Assembly: GCA_958430865.1 (NCBI GenBank)
Contig: CAUDNR010001247.1
Span: 61,967-90,201 of the forward strand
DNA from: Entrophospora sp. SA101
Lineage: Eukaryota; Glomeromycota; Glomeromycetes; Entrophosporales; Entrophosporaceae
DNA length: 28,235 nt
Direction of reading: 5' to 3'
Position numbers and translations under genes: made by a program. The notes beneath the pieces were generated by a model. The model was given only the letters and a program-made list of their open reading frames with translations. It was not told where the DNA came from and made no database searches. Below, one piece after another: positions 3,081-24,243 of the stretch. Position 1 is the first letter of the stretch, and each line of letters opens with the position of its first letter.

Positions 3081-5174
3081 CTAAAGAGCAAATACAGCCT
3101 TATTTACTATTTAAAATAAAACAAAAAATCAAATCAACAGTTAATATGTTTTCAAAAACAATGATATTATTGGCTTTAATAATAGTAATGATGAAAATGC
3201 TTACTTTCTATTTATTATTTAAAATAAAATGGGAATCGATCAACAGTTAATATGTTTTCAAAAACAATGATATTGACTGTAATGATAGTGCAATGATGAA
3301 AATACTTACTTCCTATTTATATAAAATAAAACAAAAAACAATCAACAGTTAATATGTTTTCAAAAACAATGATATTGACTGTAATAATAAATAAATGATG
3401 AGAATACTTACTTTCTATTTATTATTTAAAATAAAATAGGAATCGATCAACTGTTAATATGTTTTCAAAAACAATGATATTGACTGTAATAATAAATAAA
3501 TGATGAAAAAATACTTACTCCCTATTCATTATTTAAAATAAACCAAAAATCAATCAACAGTTAATAATATGTTTTCAAAAACAATGATATTTACTGTAAT
3601 GATAGTGTAATGATGAAAATACTTACAGTCTTATCATTATTTAAATAAAACAAAAAAAAATCAACAATTAATATGTTTTCAAAAACAATGTTATTGACTG
3701 TAATAATGGTAAACAATGAGAATACTTACATGCTATTTATTAATTAAAATAAAATGAGAATCAATCAACAGTTAATATGTTTTCAAAAATGATAATAGTG
3801 TAATGATGAAAATACTTACTCTCTATTTATTATTTAAAATAAAATGAGAATCAATCAACAGTTAATACGTTTTCAAAAACAATGATATTGACTGTATTAA
3901 TAGATGAATGATGAAAATACTTACAGGCTATTCATTATTTAAAATAAAACAAAAAACAATCAACAGTTAATAAATATGTTTTCAAAAACAATGATATTGA
4001 CTGTAATGATAGTGTAATGATGAAAATACTTACATTCTATTCATTATTTAAAATAAATCAAAAAACAATCAACTGTTAATATTTTTCAAAACAATGATAT
4101 TGACTGTAATGATAGTGTAATGATGAAATACTTACTTTCTATTTATTATTTAAAATAAAGTAAAAATCAATCAACAATTATTATGTTATTGTTGTATGTG
4201 AAAATGAAATTATGTGAAATTCAAATTTACATGTGTGAAATTCAAATTAGCCAATCAGAATTTCACCCTACTCCATAATATTTCAATTTCACATAATTTC
4301 AATTTCACATACAACATTATCAAAAACAATGTTATTGACTGTAATAATGGTAAATGATGAGAATACTTACAGGCTATTTATTATATAAAATAAAACATAA
4401 AACAATCAACAATTAATATGTTTTCAAAAACAATGTTATTGGCTGTAATGATAGTGTAATGATGAAAATACTTACAGCCTTATTCATTATTTAAAATAAA
4501 ACAAAAAAAAATCAACAATTAATATGTTTCAAAAACAATGTTATTGACTGTAATGATAGTAATGATGAAAATACTTACTGGCTATTCATTATTTAAAATA
4601 AAACAAAAACCAACCAACGGTTAACATATTTTCAAAAACAATGATATTGACTATAATAATAAATAAATGATGAAAATACTTACAGCCTATTCATTATTTA
4701 AAAACAATCAACTGTTAATATTTTTTTCAAAAACAATAATCTTGGCTTTAAAAATAGCAGTGATGAAAATACTTACTTTCTATTTATTATTTAAAATAAA
4801 ACAAAAATCAACCAATGGTTAATAAATTTTCAAAAACAATGATATTGACTGTAATGATAGTAATGATGAAAATACTTACAGGCTATTCATTATTTAAAAT
4901 AAAACGAGAATCAATCAACAGTTAATATGTTTTCAAAAACAATGATATTGACTGTAATAATAGTAACTTACCACTCTATTTATTATTTAAAATAAAATGA
5001 AAACAAATAATTAATATGTTTTCAAAAACAATTATATTGACTGCAATAATAATACAAAAATACTTACGGAACTATTCATTATTTAAAATCAAATGAAACC
5101 CAATAGTTAGCATTTTTTCAAAATCAATGATATTTGACTATAATGATGTTTATTGCAATAGTTAAATGAAATAC
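3081..5174 (-). repeat. Tandem intron array, about 19 units of roughly 105 bp
   Basis: Spacing between successive microexons is mostly 102-110 bp, with three shorter (about 90 bp) and one long unit of 235 bp that carries a transposon. On the minus strand the consensus unit runs GTAAGTATTTTCATCATTA, an ATTACAGTCAATATCATTG block, TTTTTGAAAACATATTAAC, TATTTTAAATAATGAATAG, then the variable microexon. An internal ATTACAG after about 33 nt could act as an alternative acceptor, but the exon it would create has stops in all three frames. The array behaves as a minisatellite whose boundaries are splice sites. Confidence 0.9.
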
Positions 5175-5268
5175 CTCGCTCCTCTAAATTATTGTTAATA
5201 CCCATTGGACTTGCTAAAACAACGACAGCAAAGATAACCAAAAAGAGAAGAGAAATATTGAATTTCAT
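3081..5268 (-). CDS. Small secreted peptide precursor encoded by single-codon microexons
   Basis: Predicted 55-aa secreted precursor. Exon 1 (5268-5175) encodes MKFNISLLFLVIFAVVVLA, a classic signal peptide, then SPMGINNNLEER plus one base. Next come microexons at 5071-5068 and 4975-4972 (4 nt each), then 16 of exactly 3 nt: 4882-4880, 4779-4777, 4686-4684, 4581-4579, 4478-4476, 4373-4371, 4138-4136, 4036-4034, 3927-3925, 3822-3820, 3732-3730, 3629-3627, 3521-3519, 3414-3412, 3312-3310, 3207-3205. The terminal exon (3098-3081) gives AVFAL and TAG. Each microexon sits between ATAG or ATAAG and GTAAG. The phase closes exactly (1+4+4 = 9 nt), after which every microexon is one whole codon. Mature part: VPVPKAPAPKNPRHTGKEK then AVFAL. 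Introns are ~100 nt with TTAAC/CTAAC branch-like motifs. Splicing is inferred; an unspliced 53-codon reading of exon 1 also exists. The terminal GCT could be another microexon. Confidence 0.8.
4190..4316. mobile_element. 127-bp MITE inside an intron of the microexon gene
   Basis: The ends are TGTTGTATGTG and CACATACAACA, with inverted similarity continuing inward (GAAATTATGTGAAAT). TTAT flanks both sides (4186-4189 and 4317-4320). Removing the element and one TTAT leaves ATGTTATCAAAAAC, matching ATGTTTTCAAAAAC of neighbouring units, so the array itself supplies the empty site. It lengthens only the intron between the microexons at 4371 and 4138. An internal piece (GAAATTCAAATTAGCCAA) recurs at 20532-20562. 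Confidence 0.85.
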
Positions 5269-6285: not shown

Positions 6286-6289
6286 TCCA

Positions 6290-7332
6290 GTTTGTGTAAG
6301 AGTGATCGAAGTAAGCATTAAGAACAAGATCTATGAACAAAATATAATAACGAACGTTTTATTAATAATTCAATAGTTTATGTAGGAGTGATCAAAGTAA
6401 GCATTAAGGACAAGATCTATGAACAAAATATAATAACAAACGTTTTATTAATTATTCAATAGTTTATGTAGGAGTGATCGAAGTAAGCATTAAGGGCAAG
6501 ATCTATGAACAAAATATAATAACAAACGTTTTATTAATTATTCAATAGTTTGTATAAGATCTATGAACAAAATATTCTAACGAACGTTTTATCAATTATT
6601 CAATAGTTTGTGTAGGAGTAATCGAAGTAAGCTTTAAGGACAAGATCTATGAACAAAATATTCTAACGAACGTTTTATTAATTATTCAATAGTCTGTATA
6701 GGAATGATCGAAATAAGCGTTAATGGCAAGATCTATGAAGCTTGCGAAGCAAGTTTTACAAAAATTAGTGGTTGTATCCGTTGATTATCCGGGTGTTTGA
6801 GCAATTAGTCAATCAATAAAACTCAACATCCGGATAATTGGTCAGTCAATAGAATTCAACACCCGGATCATTGATCATTCACTGAATATCCGCCGAATAT
6901 CCGCCGAATATCCGTTAAATATTAAATTTATTTAAAAAAAATTTTTTTATTCATCAGGAAAATATAATAAATTTTTATTCATCAAGATCAAGAAAATATT
7001 TTCAACACACACATTGCATATTTTTTTTAAGAAATACAATTCTTTCAAATAATAATGGGTTCAATTTTGTTCGTTTGGCTGTCATTAAAGAATGTAAGTG
7101 ATAAAATATTATTTATTATATTAATTACGTGGATATTTTTATTTTTTTATATTCTGTACCACCGATTATTCACCAATTATTTGGTGAAAATTTTCAACAC
7201 CCGATTAATTAATCAATGAAAAATTCTCAATACCCGATTAACCGGATAATTAGTGAATAATTGGTGAATATCATTCGGCGGTTACAACCACTAACAAAAA
7301 TGAATGTTTTATCAATTATTCAATAGTTATTT
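6290..7332 (+). repeat. 86-bp minisatellite, interrupted by a transposon
   Basis: Units begin at GTGATCGAAGTAAGC (about 6301, 6387, 6473), then a shortened unit, then about 6617 and 6703. A final part unit at 7302-7332 (GTTTTATCAATTATTCAATAG) lies beyond an inserted element. Period is 86 bp. Each unit has an AATAG and a GTAAGC that resemble splice sites around a 20-nt segment, but that segment barely varies and is not a multiple of 3. Confidence 0.8.
6766..7293. mobile_element. 528-bp hAT-type nonautonomous element, 8-bp TSD ACAAAAAT
   Basis: Ends are TAGTGGTTGTATCCG and CGGTTACAACCACTA. ACAAAAAT flanks both sides (6758-6765 and 7294-7301). An 8-bp duplication and TAGTG-type termini are hAT hallmarks. 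The interior has further inverted similarity built from CCGGATAATT and ACACCCG blocks near both ends and no transposase frame. It sits in the 86-bp minisatellite. Confidence 0.85.
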
Positions 7333-16183: not shown

Positions 16184-16421
16184 TACCGTAAAGTCTTGAA
16201 AGATAGCACCCTTTTGACAATTCAGTTTGAGGATAAGGTTAAGTAAAAAAGGCAACTAATTTATTAGAGAAAATGTTAAATAATATATTATGCAAAAATT
16301 CATCGAAGAAATGAGGCTAATACTAATAAATTTTGTTTACTTGTGAACATATCCTTATTGCCTTCTATTTTTGGAAGGTTTTATCTTTCGGGGGAGTGCT
16401 ATCTTTCCAGACTTTACGGTA
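16184..16421. mobile_element. 238-bp mariner-type MITE inserted at TA in a pseudogene
   Basis: Ends are TACCGTAAAGTCTTGAAAGA and the inverted TACCGTAAAGTCTGGAAAGA, inverted similarity continuing through TAGCACTCCC. The intact gene copy at 23495 reads ATCATTACTGGATAG and this locus reads ATCAT-TA[element]TA-CTAGATAG, so it entered at a TA dinucleotide, as Tc1/mariner elements do. A lone terminus of the same family lies at about 7990-8007. Confidence 0.85.
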
Positions 16422-16795
16422 CTAGATAGTAAATAATTATTGATATTATTATGATGATGTTGCAAAATCAGACTCGTTTTCATAGCTTCTTCTTCGACTG
16501 TTCTTAACCCATCCAACGCTTTTTTAATAATTTGACCAAATATTAATTCATTCCATCCAAATCCCAGAGAAATATTATACATTTGTATGTGTTGTAAGTA
16601 TTGTTCCAAAGTAGTGATGTTAGCCGTTTAAAAATCCTTAGCCGGCTAAGCCGTTTACTACCTAAATTGGTAATTTTATTTCCATAACAAGAAAGAAACG
16701 CGGAAACCTATTACCAAATTTAGAAATTAAGTATGCAGATTATTAGCCGGCTAACATCACTATTCCAAAGAACCAGATTTTATCATTGACTTTGA
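16422..16795 (-). pseudogene. Partial duplicate of exon 1 of the 21401-24110 gene
   Basis: The minus frame reads EQYLQHIQMYNISLGFGWNE and KKALDGLRTVEEEAMKTSL, close to residues 149-196 of the intact gene, and ends in LSS where the mariner-type MITE begins. Upstream it is split by the hAT MITE at 16612-16762. Beyond that the homology (AACCAGATTTTATCATTGA) fades near 16795. About 220 bp of exon survive, with no start codon, so it is nonfunctional. Confidence 0.85.
16612..16762. mobile_element. 151-bp hAT MITE, 8-bp TSD TTCCAAAG
   Basis: Ends TAGTGATGTTAGCC and GGCTAACATCACTA; TTCCAAAG at 16604-16611 and 16763-16770. The intact gene at 23665 has a single TTCCAAAGAACC, giving the exact empty site. 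Internal TTAGCCGGCTAAG and ATTACCAAATTT/AAATTGGTAAT pairs make it highly palindromic. Related copies: 10972-11085 and 22028-22073. Confidence 0.95.
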
Positions 16796-21400: not shown

Positions 21401-24033
21401 CTAAAAATAATCAAAATCAACCCCTTGAGAATTTTCTAAGCTCACTACAATATCGGTATGCTCAACACCTGAAATAACTTCTCTGATCAAGTCATTTGGG
21501 ATATATTCGAGTGAGCTATCTGCTGATCTGATAACGAATTGTTTGTTTGGTGGAGCGGATGCATTATTTATAGCAAACGTAACAACTGAAGAAAATGTGG
21601 TTGTATCTGATACAGCAACTTTTTGCTTATAAACTTTTTTCTTAGATCTGACTGTTACAGATTTTAATAATGGGGTCGTTACTTTGGGTGTTGATTGTAG
21701 TGGTGGTGATAATGACAATGATGATGATGAAAGAAGAATGTTAGGTGAATTGAGTGGCGGTGGTAAAGGTGGTGGTTGAGGTGGTGGTGGGGGTTGTAGT
21801 TGAAATTGATGTAAAGGTGTTGTTGTCGTAGTTGATGGCTTCGCTGGAAGAATAATATTTTGTTGTTGTAATTCTAGTGATGGTCTATGTTGAGGAGCTC
21901 TTAACGTTGAAGATGGAGGTGGAGATAGAGGAGGAGGGGGGGAAGCATAAATTGAAGCTTTGATTTAAATAAAGAAAGGTATTTTAAAAAATCAGTTAGC
22001 ATAAAAGTGATTATTTAACATTAAGAGTAGTGATGTTAGCCAGCTAAGAATTTTTAAACGGCCAACATTATTAATAAAAAAATAATACTTACTATTACTA
22101 TCAGCAATAAAATTTCTTGGAGGAGAGTGTGGAGAGTAATAATATGTGGTATCTACAATCAATTACACACGCGATTAATTAGTTTATAAATAACAGTATT
22201 ATAAAATATTTACTTTGTACTTACCATTATTGTTATTATTACTACTAATATTATTAATATTTTTGAAAACATTGTTTTTTCGATAAAGAATTAATTGTAT
22301 TTCACACTCATATTCGTCATCTTCTGCATCATTGTCATCGGGATTTTTATCATGGTTCACTGGTCCACCTTCTCCTTTTCCCTTGAGGTCTTCTTTATCG
22401 TCAGTTTCGTTATATATATTTTTAACAATCTTCCAAAATTTGTTGAAGCTGTCTTCATCGTTTAATTCTATAATTACATCGTTGCAATAATCATCATTAT
22501 TATTACTCGCAACAGCTTTCTTTTTGATGGCAGTTGTCTTTTTCGACTCATCGACATTCTTATCGCCTATATCTTTATTATTGCTGTCATCATTTTCAAT
22601 CATCATAATTATCCCGTTACCCTTGGCGTCGTCGTCAACAACCTTGGTTTTATTTTCAACTAGGGTTTTTTCTTTTTTATTCTTTCTAATCACTTTATAA
22701 TAAAGTTTTTTGACATCAACATTACCCCAACTTGTTGGAAAAGCGGTTGACGAAACGACGTTGGAATGAAAATTTTTATAAGTTTGGTTTGATTTTGGAA
22801 AATTCATATCATCCAAATAAATCTCAATTTGTTGATCGAGTTGTATGGAATCGTTGGAGTTGGCATCTAAACATATCACAGTAAATTTTTTTGATGATTT
22901 CGTCTGCTCTATAAAAATAATAACGATAACAGTCAATTCGTCAGTAAACATATATAATTAGAATGATCATTATTATTGCTTTAGAAATGTGCGTTCAGGG
23001 ATTATCATTAGTGTTGGTTTCCAAAACTAGAGAGTTTCGCGACTGTGCAAAAGTCAAAAGGTTTCGTCATAAGTCAAAACTAGTTTTGATTTTTGATTAT
23101 TGACTTTTGATTAGTTTTGACATATAAATTTTAATTTTAGTTTTGACTTTCGTCTCTTAGAAATAGTTTTGACAACCAATACTAATTATCATGTAGTTAT
23201 CCGCAAAAAATATACGCAATCGCCAAATCGATTTCTAAATAAGGATAACACACACGCACCAACCAACCAATAAAATTGGAAAAAATAATACTCGTGGCAC
23301 AATTAGGGTTGTATTCACGGATACCGTAAGGAGGTCACATAGGGATTTTTTGCTGATTTATTAGTGTGTAATCCCCTTAACGGTATTCATGGTATCCGTG
23401 AATACAAACCCTAGGCACAATATGATTTGCTTACCATCTATTTCATCGTCAATGATCATCATAACCATTTCTTTATCATTACTGGATAGTGAATCATTAT
23501 TGATATTATTGTGATGCTGTTGTAAAATCAAACTTGTCTTTATAACTTCCTCTTCGACCGTTCTTAGCTCATCCAACGCTTTTTTAATAATTGGACCAAA
23601 AATCAGCCCATTCCACCCAAATCCCAGGGAAATATTATACGCTTGTATGTGTTGTAAATATTGTTCCAAAGAACCGGATTTTATCATTGATTTTCGTTTA
23701 GCATTGATGTATTCTTCCAGCAGTTTTTCTGTAATTGGAAAGTACGGGATTTGTTCACCAGCGTGTAGAGATTTGATTATATTGATAAAATTCGTCACAC
23801 CTACTCTTGAAGCTCGTGTGTTTAGGCTCGGTGACCTTTTCGTTCTACGATAATAACTAGCATTACTAATACTGCTACTGGTGCTGGTGGTAGTAATAGC
23901 ATTTTCGAGATTCGTGGTAGTGCTATTATTATTAGCAACGCTTTTAGAATAAAAGTTTGAAAAAAATGAAGGTGAAGCCGGTGATGTAGAGGATAATGAT
24001 TTTAAAGAAGAATCATTGACATTTTCATTGTCA

Positions 24034-24064
<31 letters not shown>

Positions 24065-24110
24065 CGTTATCTTCTGATGCGGAGTTGTTGGCGTGTCGGA
24101 TTGGGGGCAT
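21401..24110 (-). CDS. Four-exon gene with a recombinase-type SAM-like DNA-binding domain
   Basis: Exons 24110-23435, 22908-22225, 22152-22093, 21957-21401; all introns are GT-AG and all junctions phase 1, total 658 codons before TAG. Residues 1-95 are Asn/Ser/Thr-rich. About 104-184 (TNFINIIKSL, PITEKLLEEYINAK, LEQYLQHIQAYNISLGF, IIKKALDEL) follows the helical pattern of the N-terminal core-binding domain of tyrosine recombinases such as Cryptons. No catalytic R...HxxR...Y block follows, so recombinase activity is not expected; a DNA-binding role is inference. Residues 230-305 and 370-437 form two hydrophobic/charged modules (KKFTVICLD, LYYKVIRKNKK; IELNDEDSFNKFWKIV, ECEIQLILYRKN) divided by acidic linker. 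Exon 4 opens with a proline-rich stretch and ends in a basic-then-folded segment (VRSKKKVYKQKVAV, VTFAINNASAPPNKQFVIRS). Introns 1 and 3 carry MITEs. Confidence 0.8.
22028..22073. mobile_element. 46-bp deletion derivative of the TAGTGATG hAT MITE, in intron 3
   Basis: Starts TAGTGATGTTAGCCAGC, includes TTTTTAAACGGCC and ends CAACATTATTA, matching only the two ends of the element at 16612-16762. Flanks ATTAAGAG and ATAAAAAA do not match well, so the target duplication has decayed. Confidence 0.55.
23009..23184. mobile_element. 176-bp hAT MITE in intron 1, TSD ATTATCAT
   Basis: Ends TAGTGTTGGTTTCCAAAACTA and inverted TAGTATTGGTTGTCAAAACTA; ATTATCAT at 23001-23008 and 23185-23192. The interior repeats CAAAACTA and AAAGTCAAAA in both orientations, so it folds into a long hairpin. 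Confidence 0.93.
23304..23413. mobile_element. 110-bp hAT MITE in intron 1, TSD GGCACAAT
   Basis: Ends TAGGGTTGTATTCACGG and the inverted TAGGGTTTGTATTCACGG; GGCACAAT at 23296-23303 and 23414-23421. It lies just inside the donor of intron 1 (23434), and the last 17 or so codons of the unspliced frame that runs to 23361 are translated from this element and the adjoining intron, not from real exon. Confidence 0.93.
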
Positions 24111-24243
24111 TTTTCTTTAATGAGCGTGTGAATTGATGATGGGTGCAATTAACAGTTTGTTTTTTTAAAAAAAAATTTTCTTTGTGAAATAAACTTATTG
24201 AAAATAAAAAAATAAAAATGATTTTTCCTTCTGCAAATTTGAG

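Follow-up and report, generated by a model that had tools for sequence, protein, structure and literature searches.

Can a gene spell out a secreted peptide one codon per exon? The question arises from a 28,235-nt stretch of Entrophospora sp. SA101 DNA with 26% GC (referred to here, at its full length, as the window). On its minus strand (5268-3081), 18 units come after a signal-peptide exon, each with its exon letters set between splice-site-like letters: AATAG (GATAAG once, AATAAG once), exon letters, GTAAG. The initial annotation described this layout, with two microexons of 4 nt, sixteen of 3 nt and closure of the frame to phase 0. Every element was reproduced exactly, as was its statement that no window triplet is a stop (0 of 16). 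The reading favored here, in which we place considerable confidence, is that the window carries one member of a large family, whose predicted signal-peptide exon precedes ~100-bp cassettes with codons that would be spliced singly into a short secreted peptide. The argument is drawn from the DNA itself: anatomy, family size, codon-like triplets, frame closure, phase-shifted sister arrays, shared blocks and whole-unit differences can all be read there.

All exons of the window gene lie on the minus strand. Exon 1 (5175..5268, 94 nt) encodes a predicted signal peptide and pro-region, MKFNISLLFLVIFAVVVLASPMGINNNLEER, plus one base of the codon that follows; the exon-1 part is conserved across the 16 precursors that were aligned. 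Microexon 1 (TTCC, 4 nt, 5068..5071) and microexon 2 (AGTG, 4 nt, 4972..4975) follow, and the frame is closed at the latter (1+4+4 = 9). In other loci, the microexon 2 position has 1 or 7 nt, with an equal remainder modulo 3. Sixteen single-codon microexons and their introns occupy 3205..4882. They read, in order, CCT (4882-4880), AAA (4779-4777), GCT (4686-4684), CCA (4581-4579), GCT (4478-4476), CCT (4373-4371), AAA (4138-4136), AAT (4036-4034), CCT (3927-3925), AGA (3822-3820), CAT (3732-3730), ACT (3629-3627), GGA (3521-3519), AAA (3414-3412), GAA (3312-3310), and AAA (3207-3205). The coding sum of 94+4+4+16x3 nt amounts to 50 codons, and the predicted spliced reading is MKFNISLLFLVIFAVVVLASPMGINNNLEER VPVPKAPAPKNPRHTGKEK.

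The window array is a tandem repeat with a period of 103. Its units are spaced 90-109 bp apart with a single exception, a gap of 235 bp, and the introns between microexons measure 87-106 nt, again with one exception of 232 nt. The long intron, which precedes microexon 9, contains a MITE-like insertion of 125 bp (4191..4315) with 13-bp inverted ends (GTTGTATGTGAAA/TTTCACATACAAC). A 232-nt intron occurs at the matching place in loci L009 and L010, and a sequence resembling the MITE-like element was seen by eye near the start of L034. Upstream of the gene, positions 6289-6739 of the window form a minisatellite with an 86-bp unit, and this region can also be aligned upstream of L017.

The end of the peptide probably differs from the one first proposed. 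The last intron of the window contains two usable AGs, AAATAG followed by TAA (3104..3106, minus strand) and AATAAG followed by the AVFAL reading. The terminal exon originally described (GCTGTATTTGCTCTTTAG, 3081..3098, minus strand, with its stop after AVFAL) is reached only via the second. The first AG sits between the branch site and the acceptor of that exon and yields an immediate stop. A GCTGTATTTGCTCTT stretch is present in 15 of the 30 loci modelled in this genome (see below). There, the first AG leads to TAA in six loci (the window, L009, L010, L011, L017, and L028) and to AAA TAA in two (L024 and L032); the remaining seven (L012-L014, L018, L026, L027, and L040) have an earlier in-frame stop in their models. 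The reading downstream of the second AG ends differently among loci. Since the first AG gives TAA or AAA TAA in several loci while the second-AG ends differ by locus, TAA directly after KEK is the likelier stop. The AVFAL exon is present in the sequence and in frame, but its use is doubtful, as the earlier AG would place TAA after KEK. The predicted precursor would then have 50 aa, not the 55 aa of the initial annotation, and the GCTGTATTTGCTCTTTAG stretch (3081-3098) is more likely 3' untranslated.

Elsewhere in the window, the ORFs at 23361-24113 and 16358-16627 resemble each other by eye (..LEQYLQHIQxYNISLGFGWN..) and represent a Glomeromycotina protein family with no Pfam match. The product of the former is 100% identical to an Entrophospora sp. 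SA101 protein over the 39% of the ORF that aligned, and its other named relatives are from organisms that we take to be Glomeromycotina. A Pfam scan of nine window ORFs gave no match, nor did Rfam at gathering scores, and an NCBIfam search with four proteins gave nothing close to a cutoff.

The same architecture recurs throughout the genome (101 Mb in 2,123 contigs). A DNA search returned at least 87 array matches, overlapping hits included; exon 1 gave 58 matches (E up to 10), and a second query gave 62 (E up to 1). Searched as a 27-base pattern whose triplet is left free (TTAAATAATRAATAGNNNGTAAGTATT), the unit was counted 280 times, and never when read backwards, and a variant pattern for ATATAG-type units occurs 204 times vs none backwards. 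A chance origin of the unit pattern is excluded. Viral contigs lack the exact pattern, and prokaryote genomes lack a similar one. The initial annotation was right to read a secreted-peptide gene, but its gene is a member of a large family, and the idea of a lone odd gene was rejected on the 87 array matches.

To describe the family, 32 loci were fetched (20 + 6 + 6), 29 of which were modelled; with the window, this makes 30 models. The other three (L033, L034, and L038) lack the exon-1 start pattern. Thirteen of 15 further stretches (L041-L055, with L049 and L055 outside the reading) were partly read by eye or with a simple pattern; they include short arrays (L041-L043 and L048) and an intron-free locus (L044), and some stop at the contig end. 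Near-identical copies among the modelled loci are L009/L010 and L015/L016/L020. The models contain 10 to 48 non-empty units, with a longest run of consecutive 3-nt units that ranges from 6 to 36, and 578 of 679 non-empty units, copies included, are 3 nt long. These loci share the architecture of micro-exon genes, that is, a signal-peptide exon with many tiny, mostly frame-neutral exons, as predicted by splicing in silico. Exact exon ends are approximate: TAAATAG-type ends and AGT/AGA/AGC units were decided by a first-AG preference, some acceptors are ambiguous (for example, AAATAG|TAAATAG|AAA in L012-L014), and in L030 and L031 the first microexon is an uncertain call. L033 has many GCN, CAC, and TTG triplets with no recognised exon 1 nearby and may belong to a different family of like layout.

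Do the triplets behave as codons? For this count, L029 and L030 (phase 2, counted apart), L031 (first microexon missed by the model), and the two decayed units of L025 were excluded, and units identical in the triplet and 45 nt of flank were merged, which left 286 distinct triplets. None is a stop. Shuffling predicts a mean of 18.9 stops (minimum 6) when letters are shuffled freely and 11.8 (minimum 3) when positions are preserved, and none of 5000 shuffles of either kind reached zero. The GC content at triplet positions 1, 2, and 3 is 0.53, 0.52, and 0.13, which gives a wobble-like third position, and the corresponding entropies are 1.94, 1.91, and 1.37 bits, compared with a flank mean of 0.67. 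Triplets also diverge at 57% of sites, as opposed to 0.4-17.5% in flank blocks (4381 unit pairs with at most 5/48 flank mismatches); because identical units had already been merged, any pair without a flank mismatch differs by construction.

Frame closure points in the same direction. In 28 of 30 models, one base of a split codon is left at the end of exon 1; L022 and L023 differ by a frameshift within that exon. In 27 of the 30, the frame is restored by the first two microexons, with lengths of 4+4 (n = 17), 4+1 (n = 7, a class that includes L022 and L023), 1+1 (n = 2), or 4+7 (n = 1). The exceptions are L031, whose first microexon is missing in the model, and L029 and L030, which form a sister subfamily. 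At the other end of the gene, the stop in L021, L022, L036, and L039 would be split between exons (T|AA or T|AG), the T being left over from a pair of longer exons close to the end (9 or 12 nt, then 7 or 10 nt).

The sister subfamily would account for the stop triplets within units. With copies kept, TRR triplets make up 13 of 280 AATAG-type units (10 TGA and 3 TGG) and none of 204 ATATAG-type units, and all ten TGA units lie on contigs C65, C200, C1117, and C1987, two of which (C65 and C200) provided modelled arrays. These are L029 (C65) and L030 (C200), in which exon 1 (MKFN..PFDH..) stops after the first base of a codon and a first microexon of 4 nt (7 nt in L030, uncertain) shifts the array to phase 2. 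TGA then reads ..T|GA., which is no codon, and both arrays are stop-free before the last modelled exon. The wobble-like position has moved to exon position 1 (T 0.58 and GC 0.34, compared with a GC of 0.61 at positions 2 and 3; 38 units). By hand reading, a TGA triplet in L042 is also in such a phase.

These observations bear on a simpler possibility, namely that the array is a non-coding minisatellite with mutationally variable triplets and that exon 1 belongs to a small gene of its own or is a relic. The array is a tandem repeat by any measure, and decayed copies are present. However, a satellite of this kind would have to lack stops, show a wobble-like third position, and have its frame closed by odd-length exons. 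It would also have to confine stop triplets to the contigs of an other-phase subfamily and assemble stops across exons, and the database protein P0034, described below, speaks against it as well. A non-coding satellite was rejected on the absence of stops and the codon-like triplet statistics, and we consider it extremely improbable.

Comparison of the arrays suggests how they change. The window shares 442 bp exactly with L017 (units 1-3) and 1859 bp exactly with L009 (units 3-19), and by these blocks it would be a clean hybrid between two further members of the family. L026 is a mosaic of exact blocks shared with L040 (its units 1-6), L023 (7-10), L025 (13-25), L021 (26-27), and L018 (27-36). 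In the pairs L012/L014, L014/L013, and L015/L019, sequence identity is complete on both sides of a single break, over the whole stretch between start codon and array end, and the lengths differ by 289, 400, and 101 bp, which equal three, four, and one units; local alignments run through such repeats give 98.6% where exact identity flanks a whole-unit difference. About a dozen units of L025, a decayed 1-nt unit among them, are duplicated within the array. Differences in unit number and mosaics could in part be an assembly artefact of tandem repeats. Otherwise, they fit a predicted mode of turnover: ~97% of the array is homologous intron and only ~3 bases in 103 are exonic, so unequal exchange and gene conversion would break almost always in introns, and the peptide would change by whole residues. 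Codons would be swapped, gained, and lost as whole units, with the frame undamaged.

Some copies carry defects. In 12 of 30 models, no in-frame stop is reached; two of these (L028 and L032) gain TAA or AAA TAA by the first-AG reading, and some tails among the stopless models look unrelated to the family. The stop falls in the last four non-empty exons in 17 of the 18 models that reach one. The exception is L024, with TAG at exon 5 of 17 via a poor GAG acceptor preferred by the model; another model has TGG at this position. Two decayed 1-nt units in L025, excluded from its count, would disrupt the frame, and L051-L053, in which the start codon is absent, look like decayed copies. Zero-length units (AAATAAAAG|GTAAGT or AAATAG|GCAAGT) follow the last codons in L012, L018, L021, L022, L025, L026, L027, L036, and L039; possible interpretations are recursive splice sites or decayed units.

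Could the family then consist of once-real genes that are now mostly decayed and unexpressed? The frameshifted exon 1 of L022 and L023, the decayed units of L025, the lost start codons of L051-L053, and the 12 models without an in-frame stop are what such a pseudogene family would contain. Except for L024, however, no in-phase stop precedes the last four non-empty exons (with L025 counted minus its decayed units), and the exact shared blocks and substitution-free unit differences speak for recent turnover of frame-intact arrays, which makes wholesale decay very unlikely. Stops and frame-breaking indels in sister copies had been named at the outset as evidence that would count against the gene. 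The copies are mostly favorable to it, with no stop in 286 distinct triplets and whole-unit indels in three near-identical pairs, and the exceptions are L022, L023, L024, L025, and L051-L053.

A protein from outside this genome supports splicing of the array. A profile built from the 16 predicted precursors found two proteins among 5.8 billion, P0034 and P0035. P0035 consists of exon 1 followed by read-through of intron 1. P0034 has exon 1 followed by a 25-residue segment, RLPTVWCWDEQWAQWYDCRDPYVSE, that is not intron read-through, and its contig has 1,024 bases, which, at ~100 bp per unit, could not hold a 25-residue array. P0034 is what a spliced cDNA would give, although it may instead be an intron-free relative, possibly from a metagenome. 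The closest exon 1 in the genome is 93% identical to that of P0034 and no identical copy exists there, so P0034 would come from another strain or species. The window precursor alone, used as a protein query, gave no candidate. Protein searches of the own genome with a spliced peptide and P0034, by nature blind to single-codon exons, returned exon-1 matches only, some extending into intron 1. A search of the own genome for a processed form of the spliced window array, run without a positive control, found none. Taken over the 30 modelled loci and P0034, the predicted chain of single-codon exons claimed by the initial annotation for a secreted-peptide gene is strongly supported. If transcripts confirm it, secreted peptides of this class in arbuscular mycorrhizal fungi would be escaping gene finders and read aligners, as suggested by the two protein searches that gave only the spliced-looking P0034 and the read-through P0035.

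How might such an array be spliced? Each ~100-bp cassette would comprise an intron-like stretch and one codon. Introns are presumably defined as units, with both splice sites wholly intronic (GTAAGTATT; a TTAAC-like branch site with AATAG), and the exon letters would be free for that reason. Splicing could start at the 5' end and advance unit by unit, with three letters brought next to the following donor every time. The splicing itself is predicted, with support from P0034. A related proposal is that the arrays are spliced with unit skipping into many isoforms and that RNA-level diversity is their point. Any 3-nt unit could be skipped in frame, and alternative splicing yields diversity in schistosome micro-exon genes (MEGs; PMC10526429); yet donor and acceptor are near-invariant across units. 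We regard skipping as the main purpose of the arrays as rather unlikely, and it is compatible with, not exclusive of, serial splicing of single codons.

The predicted peptides come in different styles. Those of the window, L009, L011, L017, and L028 are Cys-free and rich in Pro, Gly, or charged residues, whereas L018, L021, L025, L026, L036, and L039 are Cys-rich, with Cys supplied by individual TGT exons. The L018 peptide terminates in TKEELAALRAALREKFLAEL, by eye a stretch with the look of an amphipathic helix. Kex2-processed secreted peptides carry a dibasic site between signal peptide and mature part. Among the 16 aligned precursors, the putative cleavage site is KR in 11 and RR in one; the non-dibasic precursors have ER (window and L017) or SR (L018), and L030 differs. 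The secreted peptide is likely cleaved at this mostly dibasic site. The mature peptide probably begins after it (dibasic in 12 of 16 precursors, ER in the window), which supplies a likely start for the mature part defined by the initial annotation, whose AVFAL end is doubtful.

The Cys-rich members raise the question of whether the peptides are antimicrobial or defensin-like and not directed at the plant. L044 (101-361) is an uninterrupted 86-aa ORF. Its signal peptide, similar to exon 1, has 59-68% identity to the query sequences, and the ORF passes the Pfam Gamma-thionin cutoff just barely (25.9 bits, cutoff 25.1). This intron-free locus weakly suggests descent from defensin-like secreted peptides. 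When five array precursors and P0034 were compared with defensin profiles, none reached a cutoff. The best was the spliced L025 peptide, a weak AtDEF-like match of 21.6 bits (cutoff 25). As several members have no Cys and none of the five array precursors tested reached a curated cutoff, an antimicrobial or defensin-like function appears doubtful. A role at the interface with plant roots, where the peptides of this arbuscular mycorrhizal fungus would act as hypervariable secreted effectors or signals, is a better candidate, and it is put forward tentatively.

On balance, we lean toward viewing the one-codon-per-exon family as a frame-proof peptide generator in which introns serve as recombination joints; a multinucleate fungus could carry many versions. 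If confirmed, this would be a genetic design that lets the length and sequence of a peptide change with the frame intact, and a natural test of the smallest serial exon and of ordered splicing over up to 36 consecutive 3-nt exons. By titles and abstract openings, the matches listed in a literature search, in which subscription papers and bioRxiv are thinly covered, include none on single-codon exon arrays or arbuscular-mycorrhizal microexons. Exon shuffling is usually conceived at the grain of domains. The arrays, if the reading is true, represent its limit case, since the predicted grain is one amino acid and the splicing information is wholly intronic.

Several known systems invite comparison. 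The microexons of aphid bicycle genes are longer than one codon, unlike the Entrophospora units. The resemblance to bicycle effectors lies in a large, fast-evolving family of putative effectors whose relatives are found by gene structure (PMC9168663). Single-nucleotide exons are spliced in Arabidopsis APC11 and Fusarium CYP621A, the latter with SRA reads, and some members of the present family have a predicted 1-nt exon; APC11 and CYP621A are conserved enzymes with one such exon per gene, unlike the arrays (PMC4674806; PMC12940212). SP7-like effectors are likewise secreted, repeat-built, and from Glomeromycotina, and one of the features that define their family is a conserved intron ahead of the first repeat (PMC11333574). 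However, their repeats are protein repeats, whereas the array repeat is intronic and its predicted protein non-repetitive. Measured against the mark of SP7-like proteins, a signal peptide plus imperfect hydrophilic protein repeats that end in a conserved island, the 16 aligned precursors have just the exon-1 part in common and no shared protein repeat.

Schistosome MEGs are the nearest kind. They comprise 35 genes with 10-20 short exons of 6-81 bp (given as 3-81 bp in the abstract of the source), mostly 15 bp, and introns of up to about 5 kb (PMC10526429). As in those genes, a signal peptide is combined with many tiny, mostly frame-neutral exons, variable secreted products, and difficult automatic annotation (PMC10526429). 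No MEG protein is among the matches listed by two homology searches, and the likeness described here is one of architecture. Unlike MEGs, the Entrophospora arrays have exons that are nearly all 3 nt long, introns that are near-identical 100-bp repeats, and a diversity that would be genomic, in the form of exchanged cassettes.
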